Source of the DNA: Prinia subflava
Taxonomy: Eukaryota > Chordata > Aves > Passeriformes > Cisticolidae
NCBI RefSeq assembly: GCF_021018805.1
Contig: NC_086259.1
Span: 1,364,001-1,428,000, forward strand
Reading direction: 5' to 3'
DNA: 64,000 nucleotides
Shown: positions 39,326 through 49,136 of the stretch, piece after piece
How the letters are laid out: each line of letters starts with the position of its first letter
Position numbering within the stretch: the stretch's first letter is position 1
Program-made: the position numbers and the translations under genes
The notes under the pieces: model-generated
What the model saw: the letters and a program-made list of their open reading frames with translations, nothing else
What the model was told of the DNA's origin: nothing
The model's database searches: none

Positions 39326-39357
39326 GTGTTGAGTCTTATATTGGTTGCTCTCTGCCT
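39326..39357 (+). pseudogene. CKLF: CKLF exon 4, left part, cut by a provirus
   Basis: After the acceptor TTTTTATAG the exon starts in phase 0 with VLSLILVALC, the beginning of the fourth MARVEL helix. It then runs into the provirus at 39358. The remainder of the exon is found at 49137-49206 beyond the provirus, with a 6-bp duplication between. Reading straight on, the exon frame continues 20 codons into the LTR and stops at 39419-39421. The predicted chimeric protein has nearly the normal length (174 against 176 residues) but half of its last helix is replaced by a polar LTR-encoded tail. It could also be rescued if the provirus is polymorphic. Confidence 0.85.
39352..39357. repeat. 6-bp target site duplication (left), CTGCCT
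   Basis: CTGCCT precedes the 5' LTR and recurs at 49131-49136. A 6-bp duplication is usual for alpha- and betaretroviruses. Confidence 0.92.
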
Positions 39358-39500
39358 TGTGGGAGGTGGGGAAGCCCAAGAGGAGAGCGACACTCTCCGT
39401 TGGAGGGAGAGTGTGTTGTAACAATCCCACAAAGCAAGTTCTCCCATCAATTTAACTGTTTTCCCCGTTACTTAGAAAGTTAGTTGTTCTCCCCTCTCCC

Positions 39501-39740
39501 ATTGGCCAAAAGTTAGGCAGTGTTCCCCCATTGGTCCAAAGTTTCTGTCCCACAGCCATTGGTTCAAAAGTTAGTTCACCCTGTTCTCGGACAGAGATTG
39601 GTTCATTCTTGATCCTTCCCCTGATTGGCCGTTTCACAATCCCCTCGGTGATTGGAGAGTTCCCCAACCTCGCCCCCTGATTGGTGAACTTTTCAATCCT
39701 CTCCCTGATTGGATAACTTCTCAATCCGCCCTGTGATTGG
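39501..39740 (+). promoter_or_regulatory. Array of nine CCAAT boxes in U3
   Basis: ATTGG, the reverse of CCAAT, occurs at 39501, 39530, 39558, 39597, 39624, 39651, 39680, 39708 and 39736. Spacing is 27-29 bp except for one gap of 39. All boxes have the same orientation. CCAAT is the binding core of NF-Y, so this array is probably the main enhancer. The same array is in the 3' LTR (+8986). Confidence 0.85.
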
Positions 39741-39772
39741 CCCTAAAAGAAAACCACACCCCTTTCCAACCC

Positions 39773-39780
39773 CATAAAAG
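39773..39780 (+). promoter_or_regulatory. TATA-like box of the 5' LTR
   Basis: CATAAAAG lies 33 bp past the last CCAAT box. Transcription should start near 39800-39810. Confidence 0.65.
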
Positions 39781-39839
39781 CCCACTGTTTTAGACTCTCG
39801 GGGTCTTCGGGCTTCGGATGTCGCCGGTTCCTGCCTCCG

Positions 39840-39845
39840 AATAAA
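39840..39845 (+). terminator. Polyadenylation signal in the 5' LTR
   Basis: AATAAA within R. In the 5' LTR it could also end CKLF transcripts that enter the provirus. The equivalent 3' LTR site is 48826-48831. Confidence 0.75.
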
Positions 39846-40151
39846 GAAGCTCCGGAGATCTCCTGGCTCCCGCCTCTCCTTTCTGCGCCGCCTGGGCTCT
39901 GAACCTGTAGGCAAAGCTGCTTGCCAGCTCACCAGCTCCCTCTCCCTCTGCTGGCACAGAGCTGCTGGGGTTGCCTAGGCGACCCTCTCACAAAAGAGCT
40001 AAATCACTGCTGCGAGCCTGTGCCTCTGAGGCTGAGAGTGTCTTTTTAAAGACAACTTGCCACAGAAGGACGCGGCCCGCCGAAGACTCCACAGAGTGGA
40101 GTCCTCGGGTGGTCAGTGGGCTTCGGCCACACACCCTCTAGCCGCGTCAAG

Positions 40152-40169
40152 TGGCGCCCGAACAGGGAC
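40152..40169 (+). other. Primer binding site, tRNA-Lys type
   Basis: TGGCGCCCGAACAGGGAC follows the LTR after two bases. It is an exact match to the tRNA-Lys site used by several betaretroviruses and lentiviruses. Confidence 0.93.
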
Positions 40170-40466
40170 CGGCTCCGGCCACCCTGCGGCAAGTTGTGTC
40201 CAGCTGGTTTCGGCCACTGGTTCGTACAACCTCGGGTTGCCACTTCCTCGAAGGGACACCTCTGCGTTCTAGCAGAGGCTACCGGAGAGGCACCGACCGG
40301 GACCTGCCAGCACCAGCAGACGGCAGCCGATCGGTCCAGGCGGTCACCACCCACCGAGCTTTTGTTGACCAACGCCGTCGGGTGAAGAGAGACAGTGAGT
40401 TGTTAACATAAGGGGTCTTTTTCTTCAGTTTTTCATTTTCTCCGTGGGTGGGACACAGAAAGGAGG
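40170..40466 (+). other. Retroviral leader with putative splice donor
   Basis: Untranslated leader between primer site and gag. GTGAGT at 40395-40400 (after GACA) is the best splice donor and would serve the cystatin-like and env mRNAs. No packaging signal could be assigned by eye. Confidence 0.6.
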
Positions 40467-41213
40467 ATGGGCAACAATATCAGCCGCCCATCACTCTCTC
40501 CATCTGAGCGGGAGTTTTATCTCCAAGTTAAACAATCCCTTGTTGCGGGAAAGTTTAAGTTTAGTTCCAGTCTTTTAAAATGTTTTGTTCATTGGATTTT
40601 CAAGTCGTTCCCTAATACTCCTTTAGACCTTGTTTTTGTTGATTCTTTCTGGGATAAGGTGGGAAAAAAGTTAAATGTAGCTCAATTAGACAGGGACCTT
40701 TCAGTTGCAGAATTTTTTCCTTTATTTAAGTTAATTATTAAAGCAGGGGAAACTAAGGGAAGTTGTGATAAGAGGGATGGGGGTGGGCCCCAGTTGAAAA
40801 CCCCTTCCCCCTGTTCCCCTCCTTGTGATCCAAAACCCCCTTCCCTTCCTGAGAGTAGGTCAGCAGGCGTTATGCGCGGTGACGCACCGGGGTGCTACCG
40901 ACCCCCGGACCCCTCCCGACCTCCTTTCTACCCCTGCCAGGACAGTGCTGGCCACACTGTCTTGGATCCTTTCCTCAACCCGGTTTCCACATCCCTCTAT
41001 CCCAGTTTTCCTTCCCCCCCAGTTTGTAGTTCTCTTTTCCCCGGTTCTCAAAATGGCGCCGGCAACGTGGCCAGCCCCGCCATTTTGCCCCTCACGATCC
41101 AAGTTTACCCACCCTATCCACACAAAATGGCCACCACACAATTACATCACCCTCTTGCCACTCTCCTTGCGCTTCGATTGGTGTGGTTGCGTCGGGCCCC
41201 TCCCCCGAAATAA
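40467..41213 (+). CDS. gag: gag, first part: matrix and proline-rich linker
   Basis: This 248-codon frame starts MGNNISRPSLSPSEREFYLQ. Gly2 offers an N-myristoylation site, and the following helices with LLKCFVHWIFKSFP resemble class II retroviral matrix. Matrix directs Gag to the membrane. From about residue 100 the sequence is Pro-rich and includes a PPFYP stretch and a YPPYP stretch of the kind used as late-budding motifs. The frame ends at 41213, while capsid continues one frame back (-1). No plausible slippery heptamer lies at the overlap (41183-41213), so I take this as an inactivating one-base deletion or equivalent and not as programmed shifting. Confidence 0.82.
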   Translation: MGNNISRPSLSPSEREFYLQVKQSLVAGKFKFSSSLLKCFVHWIFKSFPNTPLDLVFVDSFWDKVGKKLNVAQLDRDLSVAEFFPLFKLIIKAGETKGSCDKRDGGGPQLKTPSPCSPPCDPKPPSLPESRSAGVMRGDAPGCYRPPDPSRPPFYPCQDSAGHTVLDPFLNPVSTSLYPSFPSPPVCSSLFPGSQNGAGNVASPAILPLTIQVYPPYPHKMATTQLHHPLATLLALRLVWLRRAPPPK

Positions 41214-42691
41214 AAACTATCCCCATCTCTTGCGGCGAGGTCACCAATCCCGTCGCGGGCCCCGCCCCTGACCACACCCCCAACACAAGTAACACCCCTA
41301 ACACTGGCTCCACCCCAGACACCTGCCCCTTTCCACAAAACCCCTCCCCTGTGTACCCCTCCACTTCCGGAAGTGGGGGTCCAGGCAGCCGGAAGGAAGC
41401 CATCTTGGCTCCCATTGCAACCCCACATCACACACCTCCGGCACACAGCAACAAAACAAACCTGCGTTTTAAGCCCCCAACATCTGACGATGAAAGCAGT
41501 GAGTCTTCACTTTCAGATTACGAAGACCACTGGGCTAAAACACGAGGGGACGCAGCAAAAGAAGGGGACTGGGCAATGGTAAATAAGATATCAGCCTTTC
41601 CTATCACTGTCAAAACTAGCAGGCGTTCTGGGAGGACTGTTACCTGGGAGCCCTTACCATATAATCAATTAAAGGAACTGTGCAAGGCTGCCAAGGAACA
41701 TGGCAGAGGGTCCCACTATTTTAAAAACTTATTGGAAGCTACCTTCGCCGCTCACACATTAATACCCCATGACATTAAGAATATTATGGGATGTCTGCTC
41801 TCCCCAGCGGAGTACATGTTATGGGAAAGAAATTGGAAACGGCAATTAGGAACATTGGTCACTACATATCAAAACGATCCAAACAAACCTCAATTAAATT
41901 TAGAGCAGATTGCTGGCGAAGGGAACTTCTTTAAGCCACAAGACCAGACCAATATCCCAGAGACTGCACTGCTTGACATCACAATGGCCGCTAAATCAGC
42001 ACTCTTGCTTACCCCTGATGATTCAATTCCAACACAGAGCTTCACACATATCATGCAAGGTCCGGAAGAATCATTTATAAAATTCATAGACAGATTAAAA
42101 ATTGCTTTAGAAAAACAGCTTGAGAGCAAAGAGGTGCAAAAAGAAATGCTAACTAAATTAGCAATGATTAATGCTAATTCAAGCACCAAAGTGGTACTTA
42201 GATCCTTGCCCCTTGATCCACCCCCAACTGTGGATCAAATGATAGAAGCCTGTGTCAAACATAACTCCACCGAGAACACAGTGGCCCAAGCAGTTGCACA
42301 GGGAATTGCACAAGGTGTCTCTGGAGCTTTTGCCGTGGTATCGTCAAAAGAAAACTCCAGATGTTTTAATTGTGGAAATATTGGACATTTTATAAAGGAC
42401 TGTCCGGAAAAGCACATGGTGCTAGACCATACAAAAGACCATAATTGGTTGCGCAGCAACCCTAGGAGAACTTGGCAGCCGGGAAACTCCCGGCTGAGCG
42501 CGGACCGGCGCCGCGCGAAGACACCAAATTCCCAGCCGTCTCGTCCTCATCATGCCGCTCGCGTCCCTGGACACACAGACTCCGACCAGTTCCCCCACGG
42601 GCCACAGACCCCCGAGGAAAAGGTACCAGCGGAGATGAAGAAGAATCAGTTTATGCCACGGTACAGGTGGGGACCAGACGGGAGCTGGTGA
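41183..42691 (+). CDS. gag: gag, second part: capsid and nucleocapsid
   Basis: This frame has no initiator of its own and should be the continuation of Gag. After a Pro/Thr-rich stretch and an acidic segment it enters capsid. The major homology region (QGPEESFIKFIDRLKIALE) sits near 42057-42113 and is the family signature. One CCHC zinc knuckle, CFNCGNIGHFIKDC, lies at 42362-42403; I see no second one, although class II viruses often have two. The frame passes a -1 shift site at 42481 and, if not shifted, ends at 42691 with a basic Arg/Pro-rich tail. Expression as a normal Gag precursor is blocked by the frame break upstream. Confidence 0.85.
   Translation: MVASGPSPEIKTIPISCGEVTNPVAGPAPDHTPNTSNTPNTGSTPDTCPFPQNPSPVYPSTSGSGGPGSRKEAILAPIATPHHTPPAHSNKTNLRFKPPTSDDESSESSLSDYEDHWAKTRGDAAKEGDWAMVNKISAFPITVKTSRRSGRTVTWEPLPYNQLKELCKAAKEHGRGSHYFKNLLEATFAAHTLIPHDIKNIMGCLLSPAEYMLWERNWKRQLGTLVTTYQNDPNKPQLNLEQIAGEGNFFKPQDQTNIPETALLDITMAAKSALLLTPDDSIPTQSFTHIMQGPEESFIKFIDRLKIALEKQLESKEVQKEMLTKLAMINANSSTKVVLRSLPLDPPPTVDQMIEACVKHNSTENTVAQAVAQGIAQGVSGAFAVVSSKENSRCFNCGNIGHFIKDCPEKHMVLDHTKDHNWLRSNPRRTWQPGNSRLSADRRRAKTPNSQPSRPHHAARVPGHTDSDQFPHGPQTPEEKVPAEMKKNQFMPRYRWGPDGSW
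42481..42520 (+). promoter_or_regulatory. gag-pro ribosomal frameshift site
   Basis: The heptamer GGGAAAC (42481-42487) is placed as G GGA AAC in the gag frame, the same heptamer known for the gag-pro shift of type D betaretroviruses. It is followed closely by a GC-rich segment in which GCGCGG and CCGCGC can pair. A -1 shift leads exactly into the pro frame. Confidence 0.85.
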
Positions 42692-43329
42692 GTGACCTTT
42701 CGATACAACTTGAAAATGACTCTGTTTTTAAAATTGCAACTGGGAAACGGGCACCACTTAACGGCCCTTGGGACATTTTAATTATCGGAGACCCTATGCA
42801 CAAACCGCCAGAGATTGCAGTTATCCCAGAGGTACAGACATTAGAGCCCGGAGAGGAGATTTTTATTTCAATTTTATGTTTGGACTATCCTTATTTTTTA
42901 CCCGCTGGAGTCCCCTTGGCTCAAGCATTTTTACTTCCCCGAAACCTCCCTGATGTGGTTCCAGTAAATCCTACCGCCTTTTGGGTGAAAGTCATTGGGG
43001 CAAATAAACCTATCATCAAATGTACATTGTTTTCCAAAGGTGAGAAGGTAAAAAGACCCGGGATGGCGGACACGGGGGCAGACGTGACCATCATCGCAAG
43101 ATCAGAATGGCCTGCCGACTGGGAGCTTGAGCCTGTTGCAGGCATGATCTCAGGTATTGGGGGCGTTGCAACCTCATGGCGCTCCAAACGAAATGTGGTG
43201 GTAAGTGGGCCAGAAGGCAAGGTCGCAACTATCAGACCCTTTGTAGTCAGAGCACCAATCACCTTGTGGGGACGGGATGTCTTATCCCAATGGGGCGCAT
43301 CACTGCAGATTAACTGCAGGGATTTTTAG
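42481..43329 (+). CDS. pro: pro: dUTPase-like domain and aspartic protease
   Basis: Entered by the -1 shift at 42481, this frame gives 282 residues. After a linker it has a dUTPase-like beta domain (about 42700-42950, with TGKRAPLNGPWDIL and PAGVPLAQAFLLP). The usual motif 3 with its Asp/Tyr is not recognisable, so this domain may not be catalytic. The protease follows, with the active-site DTGADVTII (DTGA at 43069-43080), a flap-like GIGGVA and the terminal LWGRDVLSQWG. The protease cleaves the Gag and Gag-Pol precursors as a dimer. The frame ends at 43329, overlapping pol by ten bases. Confidence 0.85.
   Translation, partial: GKLPAERGPAPREDTKFPAVSSSSCRSRPWTHRLRPVPPRATDPRGKGTSGDEEESVYATVQVGTRRELVSDLSIQLENDSVFKIATGKRAPLNGPWDILIIGDPMHKPPEIAVIPEVQTLEPGEEIFISILCLDYPYFLPAGVPLAQAFLLPRNLPDVVPVNPTAFWVKVIGANKPIIKCTLFSKGEKVKRPGMADTGADVTIIARSEWPADWELEPVAGMISGIGGVATSWRSKRNVVVSGPEGKVATIRPFVVRAPITLWGRDVLSQWGASLQINCRDF
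43320..43326 (+). promoter_or_regulatory. pro-pol ribosomal frameshift site
   Basis: G GAT TTT in the pro frame, immediately before the TAG stop. It resembles the GGATTTA heptamer of the mouse mammary tumour virus pro-pol shift. A -1 shift opens pol. Confidence 0.75.
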
Positions 43330-46076
43330 TTGGGGCCACTGATGAGCGCGCTTGTAACATCCTGCAGCTCACATGGAAAAAGGACGACCCCGTGTGGGTT
43401 GATCAGTGGCCCCTTTCAGAAGAAAAATTGCGCGCCTTGAGACTGTTGGTCGATGAGCTGCTTGCTAAAGGCCACATTACACCGTCTAACAGCCCCTGGA
43501 ATACCCCAGTTTTTGTTATTAAAAAGCCTGGAAAAGACAAATGGAGACTTTTACAAGATCTCCGGAAAGTTAATGATATCATTGAAGACTTTGGCCCTCT
43601 CCAACCAGGCATGCCATCACCAATGATGCTCCCTAGGAATTGGCCCCTTGCTGTCATCGACATCAAAGACTGTTTCTTTAACATTCCCCTCCATCCCGCA
43701 GATGCACCCAGATTTGCTTTTTCAGTTCCTTCCCCCAATCGACAAGCTCCTCTCCAAAGATACCATTGGCTGGTGTTACCGCAAGGAATGAAGGCAAGTC
43801 CTTCAATTTGCCAATGGTATGTGGCTCGTATTTTATCTCCTATCCGTGAGCAGTTCCCAGACTGCATTTTACTACACTATATGGATGATTTATTATTATG
43901 TGCCAAAGACTCACAGACTTTACAGACTCTACTGACCACTACTATTACCACAGTGGAAAGCGCTGGATTCGAGATCCAGCAGGAAAAAATACAACTCACA
44001 AGCCCATGGAGCTACCTCGGACTGCGAGTGCAGGAGCAGACCATCGTGCCCCAGCCGCTCATCATCAACAACAATCCTAAGACGCTGCACGACTTGCAAC
44101 AACTATGTGGATCGATCAACTGGGTCCGGCCTCTTCTCGGCATTTCCTCAGAGGACCTCGCACCCCTATTTAACCTGTTAAGGGGAGACAGTAAGCTGAA
44201 CTCACCGAGATCTTTGACACCAGAGGCCAGGCAAGCCATCGCAGTCGTGCAAAACGCTCTCTCTGAACGGCAGGCGCACAGGTATGACCCATCCTTACCC
44301 TTCCTCCTCGCAGTACTGGGTAGAGCTCCTCATATCAGTGGTCTGATATTCCAATGGGACAGCCAGTTAAAAGACCCACTGTTGATCCTTGAATGGGTCT
44401 TTTTACATGCCAGGTCCACAAAGACAGTTACCACCCCTCAAGAGTTCATAGCCTCTGTCATTCGAAAAGGGAGGGCACGCCTCCGCTCTCTTGCAGGGTG
44501 TGATTTTGCGTGCATCTACATGCCATTGGCCACTTCCGAAGAGCTTGAGTTTCTGCTCCGGAGCAATGACAACCTCCAATTTGCCCTTGATAGCTACTCA
44601 GGGAAAATTTCAATTCACTATCCAGGCCACAAATTATTTAAAGCAGATTTACATTTGGTTCCCAAATTCATCCAAAGTAAGATTCCTCTCGACGCTGTGA
44701 CAGTTTTTACGGACGGCTCAGGGGCTTCACACAAGTCAGTTATGACTTGGGAAGACCCCAGAACGCGGAGGTGGGAGTCCGACGTTCAACTTGTGGAAGG
44801 TTCTCCGCAAATTGCAGAACTAGCAGCCGTTGTCAGAGCGTTCGAGAAATTCAAAAACCAACCTTTCAATTTGGTCACAGATTCGGCATATGTAGCAGGA
44901 GTAGCTATGAGGGCAGAACACGCCATTTTGAGAGAGGTGTCAAATAAAAAACTTTTCCAGTTGCTTTCTCGATTAATATTTCTTATCTCCCACAGAAAGC
45001 AACCTTTCCATGTCATGCACGTGAGGTCACACACTGACCTTCCAGGAGCCATCACAGAGGGAAACAAGAGAGCTGACGCGCTAGCAATGGCAGTTCAAAC
45101 ACCCACATTGCCCGATACATTTCAGCAAGCGAAATTATCCCACCAGTTTTATCACCAAAATACACCATCACTTATGAAGATGTTTCACCTAACAAAAGAA
45201 CAAGCAAAATCCATAGTAGCAACTTGCCCTCAATGCCAAACATATCAAGTACCCTTCTTAGACAGAGGGGTGAATCCCAGAGGCCTCAACAGCAATGATT
45301 TGTGGCAAATGGACGTAACACATGTTGCGTCGTTTGGACGACTTAAATATCTACATGTGTCTGTGGACACTTTTTCTGGAGCGGTTTTTGCCTCCGCACA
45401 CTCAGGAGAAAACGCCAAATTTGTTAAAAGGCACCTTATGATGGCGTTTGCCACTCTAGGGGTCCCACAAAAAATAAAAACTGACAATGGACCCGCTTAC
45501 ACATCTAAACATTTAGAGACATTTTTTCAAGAATGGGGAATTCAACACACGACAGGCATCCCTCATTCACCTACAGGGCAATCTATAGTGGAGAGAATGC
45601 ACCAGAATATAAAAAGAGTCCTACACCAGCAACAAGAGAGCACAAAAGCACTTTCCCCTATTGAAAGACTCTGCAAAGCACTTTATGTAATCAATTTTCT
45701 TAATTGCTCAGAGGCTGAACCTAACCCTCCAGTAATAAGGCACTTTAGTAATACCACACAAGCCAAACTACAGGAGAAACCCCCTGTATTGGTGAAAGAC
45801 CCACAAACACAACAAATTACAGGACCACACCAATTAGTCACTTGGGGACGTGGATACGCTTGCGTGTCCATGCCCTCAGGGCCGAAGTGGGTCCCAGCCA
45901 AGTGTGTAAAGCCATATCTTGAACCCAATGAACCTAATGTAGTTTCTTCTGAGTCACACACAGAGCAAGATGAAGAACAAAAAACTGTCAGCTGGAAGAT
46001 AAGGAAGAAAAAGAACATACAACGAGACCAAGCAATGCATCGCCCAGTGACTCGCTCGATGAGCAAGAGACATTAA
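43320..46076 (+). CDS. pol: pol: reverse transcriptase, RNase H, integrase
   Basis: The frame is open for 918 codons after the -1 shift. Reverse transcriptase shows LPQGMKASPSICQ and the catalytic YMDD at 43878-43889. RNase H shows VFTDGSG near 44705 and a downstream VTDSAYV. Integrase shows an HHCC zinc finger ending CPQCQ (about 45130-45240) and the catalytic triad at 45312 (Asp), 45483 (Asp) and 45591 (Glu), that is DD35E. The C-terminal domain has TWGRGYACV and a basic Lys/Arg tail. I see no stop or frame break, so the enzymes look intact. The frame ends at 46074-46076. Pol copies the RNA genome and integrates the DNA. Confidence 0.93.
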   Translation, partial: GFLVGATDERACNILQLTWKKDDPVWVDQWPLSEEKLRALRLLVDELLAKGHITPSNSPWNTPVFVIKKPGKDKWRLLQDLRKVNDIIEDFGPLQPGMPSPMMLPRNWPLAVIDIKDCFFNIPLHPADAPRFAFSVPSPNRQAPLQRYHWLVLPQGMKASPSICQWYVARILSPIREQFPDCILLHYMDDLLLCAKDSQTLQTLLTTTITTVESAGFEIQQEKIQLTSPWSYLGLRVQEQTIVPQPLIINNNPKTLHDLQQLCGSINWVRPLLGISSEDLAPLFNLLRGDSKLNSPRSLTPEARQAIAVVQNALSERQAHRYDPSLPFLLAVLGRAPHISGLIFQWDSQLKDPLLILEWVFLHARSTKTVTTPQEFIASVIRKGRARLRSLAGCDFACIYMPLATSEELEFLLRSNDNLQFALDSYSGKISIHYPGHKLFKADLHLVPKFIQSKIPLDAVTVFTDGSGASHKSVMTWEDPRTRRWESDVQLVEGSPQIAELAAVVRAFEKFKNQPFNLVTDSAYVAGVAMRAEHAILREVSNKKLFQLLSRLIFLISHRKQPFHVMHVRSHTDLPGAITEGNKRADALAMAVQTPTLPDTFQQAKLSHQFYHQNTPSLMKMFHLTKEQAKSIVATCPQCQTYQVPFLDRGVNPRGLNSNDLWQMDVTHVASFGRLKYLHVSVDTFSGAVFASAHSGENAKFVKRHLMMAFATLGVPQKIKTDNGPAYTSKHLETFFQEWGIQHTTGIPHSPTGQSIVERMHQNIKRVLHQQQESTKALSPIERLCKALYVINFLNCSEAEPNPPVIRHFSNTTQAKLQEKPPVLVKDPQTQQITGPHQLVTWGRGYACVSMPSGPKWVPAKCVKPYLEPNEPNVVSSESHTEQDEEQKTVSWKIRKKKNIQRDQAMHRPVTRSMSKRH

Positions 46077-46266
46077 ACATGCTGAAGACGACAAGGACTG
46101 CTCCACCAAGAGAGCTATTCTCTTTTAGCCCCTCCCTTGTTTACCCTGATCCTTTCCCTCTTCCCTCCAATTGTAAAGATTTTATTTTGTTAAAGCTGTG
46201 TTGAATTATCACTAACATTGTTTTTTATTGCTCTTTAAATGCAGAGGCTCCTTACAACCTGCAACC
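46077..46266 (+). other. pol-to-cystatin spacer with splice acceptor
   Basis: The spacer holds a pyrimidine-rich tract and an acceptor, CTCTTTAAATGCAG, with AG at 46243-46244. The next ATG is 46267, 22 bases into the putative exon, and no other ATG intervenes. This arrangement implies a dedicated spliced mRNA. Confidence 0.7.
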
Positions 46267-46908
46267 ATGAAACTGGTGCTTGTTTTCACTGCACTCATCT
46301 GTGTGTCTACAGTACACAGCAAAACTCGTGAGATAACTCATCCAGAGTCAGATGTTACCGCACAAAAGGTGTTGCGATTTGCCCTGCAGCAGCATGACCT
46401 AAACCGCCGTCACAAGTCTCCAAGCCAGATTGTGAGGATTTTAAGAGCAGAAAAACAGATTCGCGCGGGAGTCACCTATGTGATGGACGTGGAGATCAAA
46501 CAAAACGAGCAACACCACGAATTGTGTAGCTTTGTAGTACACTCAGTACCATGGAAAAACTCTCTACAAATGCAGCAGGACAAGTGCAAAGATGTAAATG
46601 TGCTAATTAAAAGCACTGCATCCAAGGCTCCGCACGCAAGCACTTTATCTACTGTTGCTCCACAGCAACAAACCAACCGAGAAGCGAATGCAGATGCCTC
46701 TGACACACACATTTTTCGTTCCTCCTTGTTTTATATTATTATAGTCATAGGAGTTTCTTTGCCTATAATTTTCTATATTTTGTACCTAAACTACCGCAGA
46801 CGAGCTATTAATGCCGTCTTTTCAGTTTTCCAGATGGAGGGAGATGAGGGAGAAAACCAAAGTGGAGGGATGGACAAAGATAACCATCAAAAAGACACTG
46901 AACTTTGA
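46267..46908 (+). CDS. Cystatin-like type I membrane protein carried by the provirus
   Basis: 213 codons between pol and env. Residues 1-18 form a signal peptide. Residues about 30-112 read as a type-2 cystatin: a helix with VLRFALQQHDLN, the inhibitory first loop QIRAG at 64-68 followed by VTYVMDVEI, the LCSF strand, the second loop PW at 95-96, and Cys87-Cys107 in the place of the cystatin C-terminal disulfide. Type-2 cystatins are secreted inhibitors of papain-like cysteine proteases such as cathepsins. Differences: the first disulfide loop is absent, the third residue of the QxVxG motif is Arg, and the N-terminal conserved Gly is not evident. A Ser/Thr/Gln-rich stalk follows, then a transmembrane helix (about 153-175), a basic RRR stop-transfer and an acidic tail of about 33 residues. 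It is probably a captured host gene; substrate and role are unknown. Confidence 0.85.
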   Translation: MKLVLVFTALICVSTVHSKTREITHPESDVTAQKVLRFALQQHDLNRRHKSPSQIVRILRAEKQIRAGVTYVMDVEIKQNEQHHELCSFVVHSVPWKNSLQMQQDKCKDVNVLIKSTASKAPHASTLSTVAPQQQTNREANADASDTHIFRSSLFYIIIVIGVSLPIIFYILYLNYRRRAINAVFSVFQMEGDEGENQSGGMDKDNHQKDTEL

Positions 46909-47060
46909 ATGCGATGGTTAATTCCCTGGACCCCATATTCCCAAACCCACCTTCCCAGTTATACCTACCACAGTTATTACAGTTGGTGACTTAACGTTAT
47001 ACGACAGTTCTAATTCGTGTTTTATGTTTATTTAGCAGCAACCCAAGGGAACCGTTTCAG
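46909..47060 (+). other. Cystatin-to-env spacer with splice acceptors
   Basis: TTTATGTTTATTTAG (AG at 47034-47035, with CAG three bases on) lies about 25 bases before the env ATG, and a second possible acceptor CCGTTTCAG abuts the ATG. The layout mirrors that of the cystatin-like gene. Confidence 0.6.
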
Positions 47061-48407
47061 ATGAAATCTAGCTCGCAACGTGAAAACATGTCGGTACTCT
47101 TCCTGTTCTGCCTGATAGCAGGGATTAAAGCGTGGCAAGTCGGACAACCACCCGAAAACGTTTGGGTAACATTGGCAAAGACACTACAACAGGATAACTT
47201 ATGTTTATCAATGGGCTCGGTCAGCAGCCCTTTATCCTCGTGCCTGGTAGGAATGCCGTTTAACATCCAAGACCTAAGACCGCCGCACCCCCTCGCTGGA
47301 AGGTGGCCTACTCCGCCCACAGCACCCAAGTGGCCAGCTAGGGTGGCCTGGGAAAATTGGGTAGCACAATTACCAAAAGTGGCACCAGGACATTTTAATT
47401 CGGAAAGACCAGACAGGAAGCTAGAGCCCCAAGAATTGGATCTTTTAGGGTCGGCTAGAGCAAGCTATTGTTTTAATTTTTATTTCCAAAATCCAAGTGT
47501 CAGTTACAAAGTCTATTTAAACCCCTTGAATAAAAAGTATAATTCGGCCGCCTGGTGCAACCACACAGCAAAAATCCCATTCGACACATCAGGATTTCTT
47601 CATCCCAGGGCTCTCCCTAAGGGTGTCTTCCTCATTTGTGGAGACAGGGCGTGGGCAGGTCTCCCTTCCAGAATCCAAGGAGGTCCATGTACTTTTGGTC
47701 GGCTTACCACCCTCACCCCAAATACCACTATGCTGCACGAATGGAAAAGAAATAGCACCCAATTGGCTCGCCAAAAGAGATCATACCATCCCTTTGATGA
47801 AAAGTGTGAAGCCACCTTTTATTCTTGGCCCAAGTCAAAAAGGATTGCAGTCTCAATCTTCCTGCCGTGGGTGGCAGCGGCAAAAAGTTTAGGGGAGATT
47901 GAACATTTGGGGTGCTGGCTTAGTAAGCAGGCCAACAAGACATCACAAGCTTTGAGTGAGCTTCTGGAAGACGAAGAGACCACCAGGCACGCCACGCTGC
48001 AGAACCGAGCAGCTATTGACTATTTGCTTCTGCTACATGGACACGGTTGTGAAGAGTTTGACGGATTATGTTGTTTTAATTTATCAAGCCATAGTGAGTC
48101 CATTTTAAAGAAAATTCAGCTGCTAAAGGAAGATGTTAAAGAACTAAAAACTGAGAAAGACCCGGAATGGTTCCAAAATTTATTTGGACACTTCGGATTT
48201 AAGGGATGGGTTGCTGCATTGTTAAACCAATTAGTCTGGATTCTTATTGTTATAGTTATTGTGTTCTTGATGTTCACCTGTTTAGTTAAGGGCTTCAAAA
48301 AAGCAGTTGCTGATATCTTTTTAATAAATAAAAAAGGGGGAGTTGTGGGAGGTGGGGAAGCCCAAGAGGAGAGCGACACTCTCCCTTGGAGGGAGAGTGT
48401 GTTGTAA
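47061..48407 (+). CDS. env: env: surface and transmembrane envelope glycoprotein, alpha-like
   Basis: The frame is open for 448 codons. A signal peptide lies near residues 10-24. Surface subunit: about 215 residues, short, with several N-glycosylation sites. A furin-type site RQKR is at 237-240. Transmembrane subunit: Cys249 and Cys285 bracket an internal hydrophobic fusion loop as in alpharetroviruses, the CX6CC motif is at 330-338, and a membrane helix spans about 386-412. The start at 47061 follows a splice acceptor; Met10 is an alternative. The frame continues through the polypurine tract and 64 bases into the 3' LTR, ending at 48405-48407, so the last 20 or so residues are LTR-encoded. 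No lesion is seen. Env mediates binding and fusion. Pol and env have different affinities, which suggests recombination in the lineage. Confidence 0.9.
   Translation: MKSSSQRENMSVLFLFCLIAGIKAWQVGQPPENVWVTLAKTLQQDNLCLSMGSVSSPLSSCLVGMPFNIQDLRPPHPLAGRWPTPPTAPKWPARVAWENWVAQLPKVAPGHFNSERPDRKLEPQELDLLGSARASYCFNFYFQNPSVSYKVYLNPLNKKYNSAAWCNHTAKIPFDTSGFLHPRALPKGVFLICGDRAWAGLPSRIQGGPCTFGRLTTLTPNTTMLHEWKRNSTQLARQKRSYHPFDEKCEATFYSWPKSKRIAVSIFLPWVAAAKSLGEIEHLGCWLSKQANKTSQALSELLEDEETTRHATLQNRAAIDYLLLLHGHGCEEFDGLCCFNLSSHSESILKKIQLLKEDVKELKTEKDPEWFQNLFGHFGFKGWVAALLNQLVWILIVIVIVFLMFTCLVKGFKKAVADIFLINKKGGVVGGGEAQEESDTLPWRESVL
48328..48343 (+). other. Polypurine tract
   Basis: AAAAAAGGGGGAG directly precedes the TG of the 3' LTR and primes plus-strand synthesis. 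It lies within the env frame. Confidence 0.85.
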
Positions 48408-49130
48408 CAATCCCACAAAGCAAGTTCTCCCATCAATTTAACTGTTTTCCCCGTTACTTAGAAAGTTAGTTGTTCTCCCCTCTCCCATTGGCCAAAAGTT
48501 AGGCAGTGTTCCCCCATTGGTCCAAAGTTTCTGTCCCACAGCCATTGGTTCAAAAGTTAGTTCACCCTGTTCTCGGACAGAGATTGGTTCATTCTTGATC
48601 CTTCCCCTGATTGGCCGTTTCACAATCCCCTCGGTGATTGGAGAGTTCCCCAACCTCGCCCCCTGATTGGTGAACTTTTCAATCCTCTCCCTGATTGGAT
48701 AACTTCTCAATCCGCCCTGTGATTGGCCCTAAAAGAAAACCACACCCCTTTCCAACCCCATAAAAGCCCACTGTTTTAGACTCTCGGGGTCTTCGGGCTT
48801 CGGATGTCGCCGGTTCCTGCCTCCGAATAAAGCTCCGGAGATCTCCTGGCTCCCGCCTCTCCTTTCTGCGCCGCCTGGGCTCTGAACCTGTAGGCAAAGC
48901 TGCTTGCCAGCTCACCAGCTCCCTCTCCCTCTGCTGGCACAGAGCTGCTGGGGTTGCCTAGGCGACCCTCTCACAAAAGAGCTAAATCACTGCTGCGAGC
49001 CTGTGCCTCTGAGGCTGAGAGTGTCTTTTTAAAGACAACTTGCCACAGAAGGACGCGGCCCGCCGAAGACTCCACAGAGCTGACCTCGGGTGGTCAGTGG
49101 GCTTCGGCCACACACCCTCTAGCCGCGTCA
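48344..49130 (+). repeat. 3' LTR of the beta-like provirus
   Basis: 787 bp, nearly identical to 39358-40149. Differences seen: CTCCCTTGG for CTCCGTTGG near its start, three bases missing after AATAAA, and AGCTGACCTC in place of AGTGGAGTCCTC near 49078. Confidence 0.95.
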
Positions 49131-49136
49131 CTGCCT
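49131..49136. repeat. 6-bp target site duplication (right), CTGCCT
   Basis: Matches 39352-39357 and marks the exact insertion point in CKLF exon 4. Confidence 0.92.

Follow-up and report, generated by a model that had tools for sequence, protein, structure and literature searches.

According to our analysis, a provirus in the genome of the passerine bird Prinia subflava carries, between its pol and env genes, a host cystatin gene which was almost certainly captured by the retrovirus and kept by selection as an accessory gene. The provirus lies in a stretch of 64,000 nucleotides (positions 1,364,001 to 1,428,000 of contig NC_086259.1, assembly GCF_021018805.1), hereafter the window, whose own numbering is used for the features listed below. 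Capture of a host cystatin and its provision with a membrane anchor had been suggested by a first-pass annotation, made from the letters alone, and is supported here by profile searches, by a model predicted with AlphaFold, by the sister proviruses, by the evidence of selection, and by the ORF being intronless.

A membrane-anchored cystatin encoded between pol and env

The cystatin open reading frame (ORF) has no internal stop and encodes 213 residues, as the first-pass annotation had reported. That annotation had also described a signal peptide, a cystatin-like core, a stalk, a transmembrane helix, and an acidic tail, an architecture on which the match to the cystatin family PF00031, hydropathy, and the structural model agree:

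46267..46908, + strand: cystatin ORF, 213 codons plus stop; putative type I membrane protein (predicted topology)
46267..46320, + strand: signal-peptide-like hydrophobic N terminus, residues 1 to 18 (hydropathy; helix 2-13 in the AlphaFold model)
46321..46596, + strand: cystatin domain, residues 19 to 110, with QIRAG at 64-68, PW at 95-96, Cys87, and Cys107 (profile searches, model)
46597..46701, + strand: Ser/Thr-rich stalk, residues 111 to 145 (composition; low model confidence)
46726..46782, + strand: transmembrane segment, residues 154 to 172 (Kyte-Doolittle; helix 147-192 in the model)
46783..46905, + strand: acidic cytoplasmic tail ending in DTEL (PDZ-ligand-like [S/T]-x-hydrophobic)

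The window ORF belongs to the cystatin superfamily by its Pfam profile match, which spans residues 28 to 108 with an E value of 1.9e-9 and scores 38.1 bits, the family cut-off being 22.2. Its top PDB sequence match is chicken egg-white cystatin (1a67; E 1.8e-10), and a profile built from six viral proteins aligned with a profile of 19 bird cystatins at 99.2% (E 2e-19, 106 columns; HHalign profile-profile comparison). A profile search returned 198 proteins, and among the 120 matches listed the named ones are bird cystatins or synthetic constructs thereof. A single-protein search of 5.8 billion proteins gave no relative of the window ORF at an E value of ≤0.001 among 100 candidates, and a viral contig collection searched with the window protein gave none either. 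The AlphaFold model, built from an alignment of 56 sequences of which 55 are bird cystatins, has a predicted local distance difference test (pLDDT) score of about 90 over the domain and follows the cystatin order of elements (helix 30-46, strands 54-65, 69-80, 83-94, and 99-110), a result that concerns order and not packing against a solved cystatin. Of the checks that the annotation had put forward, the profile comparison came out in favor of a cystatin, and the model agrees with one in its order of elements. Beyond the domain, the model continues as a low-confidence stalk and then as one long helix across the membrane region; Ser and Thr make up 10 of the 37 residues at positions 111 to 147, and the hydrophobic segment centered on residues 154 to 172 has a Kyte-Doolittle mean of 2.71.

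The cystatin ORF in 22 loci of the same genome

When the P. subflava genome was searched in six frames, 24 matches to the cystatin ORF came out, which were fetched as 22 loci, L001 (the window copy) to L022; L016 and L017 may be halves of one element. The ORF or a remnant of it is found in these 22 loci, and sister proviruses with the order pol-cystatin-env, which the annotation had proposed to look for, do exist: this order is present in 15 of them, that is, in all eight close copies (76 to 100% identity) and in 7 of the 14 older loci. Among the close copies, pol lies 5' and env 3' of the ORF in every case, with env cut short in L006. The older loci with pol, a cystatin ectodomain, and env are L009 to L014 and L018, while L015, L016, L017, and L021 have one flanking gene absent from the stretch fetched. 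L019 and L020 have pol, then only a membrane/tail remnant, then env; they are also without the cystatin acceptor, although the remnant is kept before env. An acceptor-like AG precedes the ATG in 8/8 close copies and in L009, L010, L011, and L016. Since the ORF is free of stops in six of the eight close copies, it is not absent or broken in all sister proviruses, the finding which the annotation had named as speaking against its proposal.

The loci are unevenly distributed. C53, with 9.2% of the genome, holds 14 of the 24 matches (in L006, L008, L010 to L018, and L021; binomial 2.6e-9, with some matches being pieces of one element) and 10 of the 14 older loci, and may be a sex chromosome that retains old insertions.

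Host origin and history of the captured gene

The host cystatin gene is located at C2:101719466-101721219 and consists of three exons (101719466, 101720018, and 101721145), whereas the viral ORFs are intronless and in one piece. The viral domain and the host protein, which terminates after its cystatin domain, share 36 identities over 87 aligned positions.

In trees of the flanking genes, the cystatin-bearing loci form one clade, with Shimodaira-Hasegawa-like approximate likelihood ratio test (SH-aLRT) values of 100 for env and 98 for pol, and L019 and L020 nest inside it. Both trees fit a history of one gain and one later loss, the latter in L019/L020. They were obtained by a quick method from rows aligned to the window protein, leaving out L002, L003, L005, and L008 and dropping rows shorter than 150 residues; the L021 row of the env tree is an upstream Env and not its proper one, an error which the counts of changes on the trees include. 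Of four queries, the window Env gives the highest score with the downstream Env of L021.

We found no cystatin between pol and env in the neighboring families fetched from the same genome (L063, L064, L065, L066, L067, and L055). A sister group comprises about 40 of 94 env matches, at 53 to 60% identity to the window Env and many of them open, and looks like a recent expansion; L063 and L064, fetched from this group, have identical Env rows and no cystatin.

Purifying selection in the replicating virus

The ratio of nonsynonymous to synonymous divergence (dN/dS), which the annotation had proposed to compute across sister proviruses, points to purifying selection on the cystatin: between the window copy and the seven other close copies, it is 0.25 to 0.41 in 7/7 comparisons, with bootstrap upper limits of 0.42 to 0.70. 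In the same comparisons, env gives 0.07 to 0.16 and the C-terminal part of pol 0.05 to 0.13. Synonymous divergence of the cystatin from the window copy reaches 0.26 to 0.33, while the paired long terminal repeats (LTRs) differ by only 0.19 to 1.53% in six of the eight close copies, those for which dating was possible (for L008 across no more than 527 bases; the match for L005 was partial, with 390 identical bases, and L006 gave none). Since synonymous divergence is far above LTR divergence, most of the change in the cystatin predates the insertions, and selection at the dN/dS values given acted in the replicating virus. Across the 17 of 22 loci that have a piece of all three genes, cystatin distances track those of env (r = 0.89) and pol (r = 0.86), a correlation reached by 0 of 9,999 permutations.

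Selection is not even along the protein. Compared with L002 to L005, constraint is strongest on the ectodomain (dN 0.009 to 0.023, dS 0.136 to 0.158) and weakest on the stalk; compared with L006 to L008, the ectodomain has a dN of 0.095 to 0.106 and the membrane/tail part is the better conserved. The ectodomain of the window copy is nearly that of L002 to L005, and its membrane part, tail, and, for the most part, env are nearer to L006 to L008, so that the window cystatin looks recombinant.

An Env-like anchor and tail

Type-2 cystatins are normally secreted and have no anchor. In the proviruses, the anchor is probably derived from Env, because the cytoplasmic tails of older copies resemble the Env tail: that of L019 ends in ...SDNTLPWRDSKV and that of the window Env in ...SDTLPWRESVL. 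When the tails of L019, L010, L014, and L015 were compared with four Env tails, 0 to 48 of 5,000 shuffles reached the score, and none of 147 control C termini reached the best Env score. We consider an Env origin of the anchor likely, even though several comparisons speak against it. For L014, L015, and L011, the best controls score nearly as high (38, 40, and 36 against 44, 46, and 39), and one of the four Env-tail comparisons fails for L011. The window tail is not significantly like that of its own Env (946 of 5,000 shuffles; 58, 62, and 1,908 for the other Envs), and neither is the L002 tail significantly Env-like (107 to 2,007 of 5,000). DNA similarity between cystatin and Env tails is weak, with a best E value of 0.04. 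Since this DNA comparison goes no further and no meaningful match came out when the window cystatin was run by BLAST against the Env of its provirus, the likeness of the tails is carried by comparing the older copies at the protein level.

The tail ends in [S/T]-x-[V/L/I] in 16 of the 17 loci with a readable tail (L001 to L007, L009 to L011, L013 to L015, and L017 to L020, some in a frame other than that of the domain; L008, L012, L016, and L021 could not be counted), L005 being the exception. The same motif closes seven of eight Env tails (window, L009, L012, L014, L017, L018, and L019, but not L022), and the cystatin tail of L022 also ends differently. We take such an [S/T]-x-hydrophobic end to resemble a PDZ ligand, and, because the end positions are retained even as the remainder of the tail diverges, it may be a conserved sorting or assembly signal.

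Erosion of the inhibitory wedge and proposed role

Cystatins bind papain-like proteases through an N-terminal segment, the QxVxG loop, and the PW loop (PMC2784779; PMC8070812). Two of these three wedge elements are lost or altered in the eight close copies. The positions which the annotation had given for the two loops and for Cys87/Cys107 are correct, and PW is kept in 8/8 close copies (it is LW in L010), but QIRAG is not a canonical QxVxG loop, and only one of the two type-2 disulfides is present. Judged as an inhibitory type-2 cystatin, the window copy therefore has the PW loop and is without QxVxG, the N-terminal Gly, the two disulfides, and anchor-free secretion. Among the loci, the first loop takes the forms QIRAG, RIRAG, HIRTG, CIDAG, and RITAG, and the canonical QIVGG is found in the deep copies L013 and L018. 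Since these two keep QIVGG while the young clade has QIRAG or RIRAG and has lost the Gly and a disulfide, an inhibitor-like ancestor is likely, with its edge changed in the young clade. For the same reason, cathepsin inhibition is plausible for the ancestor, where we put the chances as about equal for and against, and ordinary cathepsin inhibition by the window copy itself appears rather unlikely.

The explanation that we favor, with somewhat more than even confidence, is a captured, Env-anchored accessory gene which began as a cathepsin inhibitor. An avian betaretrovirus-like lineage would have taken up the spliced mRNA of a host type-2 cystatin (egg-white/cystatin-C type), fused it to an Env-like membrane-spanning segment and tail, and retained it as a separate gene between pol and env, probably expressed from its own spliced mRNA. 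The predicted type I product would display the cystatin fold wherever Env goes, i.e., at the plasma membrane, in endosomes, and perhaps on particles. Its initial role would most likely have been that of a tethered inhibitor of papain-like cathepsins, which would have kept endosomal proteases from degrading Env or particles or would have dampened antigen processing, and an inhibitor that travels with Env would be the most economical role. HIV particles are digested by endosomal proteases, the Env of ecotropic murine leukemia virus is thought to be activated by cathepsin cleavage, and some microbes, contrasted with HIV in this respect, deploy cystatin-like cathepsin inhibitors (PMC3523128). In the young clade, including the window copy, the changed binding edge suggests that the target has shifted or that the fold is used as a binding module.

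A number of observations count against this explanation. The first loop reads QIRAG in the window and RIRAG in L006 to L008, neither of which is QxVxG; the N-terminal Gly (LVGAP in the host) is absent from the window copy and, where aligned, from the 11-row viral clade; the first disulfide loop is deleted, leaving only the Cys87/Cys107 pair; and where the host has RASND, around the legumain site that is numbered Asn39 in published cystatins, the viral protein reads LNRRH. L019 and L020 exist as proviruses despite having lost the cystatin ectodomain. Cystatin pairs within the two close groups, which differ by few changes, give dN/dS values of 0.36 to 0.75. The good structural model relied on host cystatins as its alignment, and the fold predicted without an alignment has a pLDDT of 55.9. 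Finally, retroviral particles that reach late endosomes have been argued to escape degradation for the most part (PMC3523128).

Alternative explanations

The strongest alternative, which we regard as possible but on the unlikely side, is that the cystatin fold serves for binding alone, the protein no longer inhibiting proteases and instead acting as a decoy or antagonist by binding a host receptor or an antiviral membrane protein, as other repurposed cystatin folds do. The eroded wedge agrees with it, as the ectodomain is nonetheless the most conserved part against L002 to L005, and so does the variability of the first loop. Yet nearly every aligned row retains PW, the loop Gly, and the Cys pair (the exceptions being LW in L010, the missing Gly in L021, and L014, where the second Cys falls at a stop), the deep copies keep QIVGG, and against L006 to L008 the ectodomain, at the dN given above, is not the best-kept part. 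Moreover, bracovirus cystatins, in which the central Val is changed as well, are nevertheless discussed as inhibitors with a different affinity (PMC2553070).

That the ORF is a functionless passenger, tolerated because it does little harm, is very improbable. The loss of the ectodomain from L019 and L020 and the faster evolution of the cystatin relative to env and pol would suit a passenger, but dN/dS stays below 1 in all seven comparisons, even at the upper limits, and a separate acceptor-like site precedes each of the two genes, cystatin and env. In a neutral simulation with substitutions only, at 0.13 substitutions per site, 111 of 2,000 ORFs stayed open, compared with six of the eight (interrelated) close copies. 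Equally improbable is co-option of the window locus by the bird as a host gene, since, although the window ORF is intact and gag of the same provirus is split, the ORF is present in eight insertions at different places, six of them dated by LTR divergences of 0.2 to 1.5%, and the selection on it is older than the insertions and tracks env and pol.

A probable second capture

L022, on C47, is probably an independent capture of the host gene. It encodes a signal peptide as well as a cystatin domain, which shows 47/69 identities to the host protein and 22/57 to the window copy, and its cystatin is colinear with host exons 1, 2, and 3 at 73, 82, and 80% DNA identity. Its frame is broken twice; the cystatin runs in the same frame into an Env stalk, followed by the membrane part, the tail, and the LTR. 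This LTR is like the one of L055 (79%) and unlike the one of the window, and L055, the nearest relative of L022, is without a cystatin and lies outside the cystatin clade. Protein trees place L022 among songbird host cystatins without strong support, and an approximately unbiased tree test does not reject one clade of L022 and the other viral cystatins (p-AU 0.289), so that the case for two captures is carried by the gene context of L022, its LTR, and its closer resemblance to the host. L022 is a single broken copy, and no pol was found upstream in the stretches examined. A broader scenario, to which we give slightly less than even weight, is that related songbird retroviruses caught the same host cystatin at least twice, each time on an Env-type anchor, and that one of these events gave rise to a long-lived clade, where the tethered cystatin became a true accessory gene and turned over time from inhibiting cathepsins to a new target.

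The provirus around the cystatin ORF

The remaining features of the window provirus are as follows, the splice sites being assigned from sequence motifs:

39352..39357: target-site duplication CTGCCT, 5' side
39358..40149, + strand: 5' LTR
40152..40169, + strand: primer-binding site, which we take to be of the tRNA-Lys type
40395..40400, + strand: donor-like GTGAGT in the leader
40467..42691, + strand: gag, split over two frames in the window copy
42472..43329, + strand: pro, retroviral protease in its own frame
43392..46076, + strand: pol (reverse transcriptase, RNase H, integrase), betaretrovirus-like
46236..46244, + strand: splice-acceptor-like site for the cystatin ORF, AG kept in 8/8 close copies
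47030..47038, + strand: own splice-acceptor-like site upstream of env
47061..48407, + strand: env, 448 codons, Avian_gp85 type, the last ~20 codons within the 3' LTR
48344..49130, + strand: 3' LTR
49131..49136: target-site duplication CTGCCT, 3' side

The acceptor-like AG of the cystatin ends at 46244, 22 bases 5' of the ATG, and together with the donor at about 40395 it agrees with the splicing signals named by the annotation. The two LTRs differ by 3 mismatches in 788 ungapped columns and by 5 gap columns. Since the final env codons (48344 to 48407) lie inside the 3' LTR, the start of the LTR may be under coding constraint. By structure matches, pol appears closest to betaretroviruses: the reverse transcriptase matches 7sr6 best (425.9 bits), and the integrase matches 7usf/3jca best (255/250 bits, compared with 153 bits for 7jn3). 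These entries are presumably HERV-K (7sr6), MMTV (7usf/3jca), and RSV (7jn3) proteins. We rejected an alpharetrovirus identity of the whole provirus, since, although Env is of the avian gp85 type, pol is nearer to other structures and the primer-binding site is taken to be of the Lys type. A promoter scan of 46077 to 46300 gave no match, and its consensus, being bacterial, is uninformative for a bird provirus.

Comparison with known systems

Retroviruses gain host mRNAs as additional ORFs relatively rarely, and usually at the expense of viral coding domains (PMC4299795). In the titles and abstract openings of the literature searched, some listings of which are incomplete, no retrovirus with a cystatin is described. 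The kind of event is already known, since CrocERV29 contains KIT-ligand mRNA as a further ORF, placed between pol and env, with no viral domain lost and with the ORF kept in nine copies under purifying selection (Chong et al. 2014, PMC4299795). The Prinia proviruses are of this kind, having an intronless copy of a host mRNA, retained viral genes, and several copies under purifying selection. They differ in that KIT-ligand is a soluble growth factor and not a protease-inhibitor fold, that the available portion of that report describes no Env-like anchor, and that the CrocERV29 genes around it have multiple nonsense mutations (PMC4299795). CrocERV31 likewise carries a host mRNA, nectin3, which was gained at the expense of env, as in L022; nectin3 is an immunoglobulin-type protein and has no full env beside it (PMC4299795).

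Host-derived cystatins are also known from bracoviruses (polydnaviruses), where changes near the inhibitory sites include the central Val of QxVxG (PMC2553070; PMC2784779). Those viruses belong to parasitoid wasps, the modeled protein has both type-2 disulfides and all three wedge elements, and the average dN/dS is 1.2 (PMC2553070; PMC2784779), in contrast to 0.25 to 0.41 in the Prinia proviruses. The avian egg-white cystatin and cystatin C share with the viral protein their sequence, element order, PW loop, and second disulfide, and differ in having two disulfides, the N-terminal Gly, and QxVxG.

As far as we searched, what is new here is a cystatin as the captured gene, its Env-like anchor, its upkeep through a clade, and its probable second capture. 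Because the cystatin stayed with pol and env while the clade diversified, a task in infection is indicated, and the lineage makes a cathepsin-related role of a retroviral cystatin testable. The Env-like tail also suggests a route by which a retrovirus makes a secreted host protein membrane bound.
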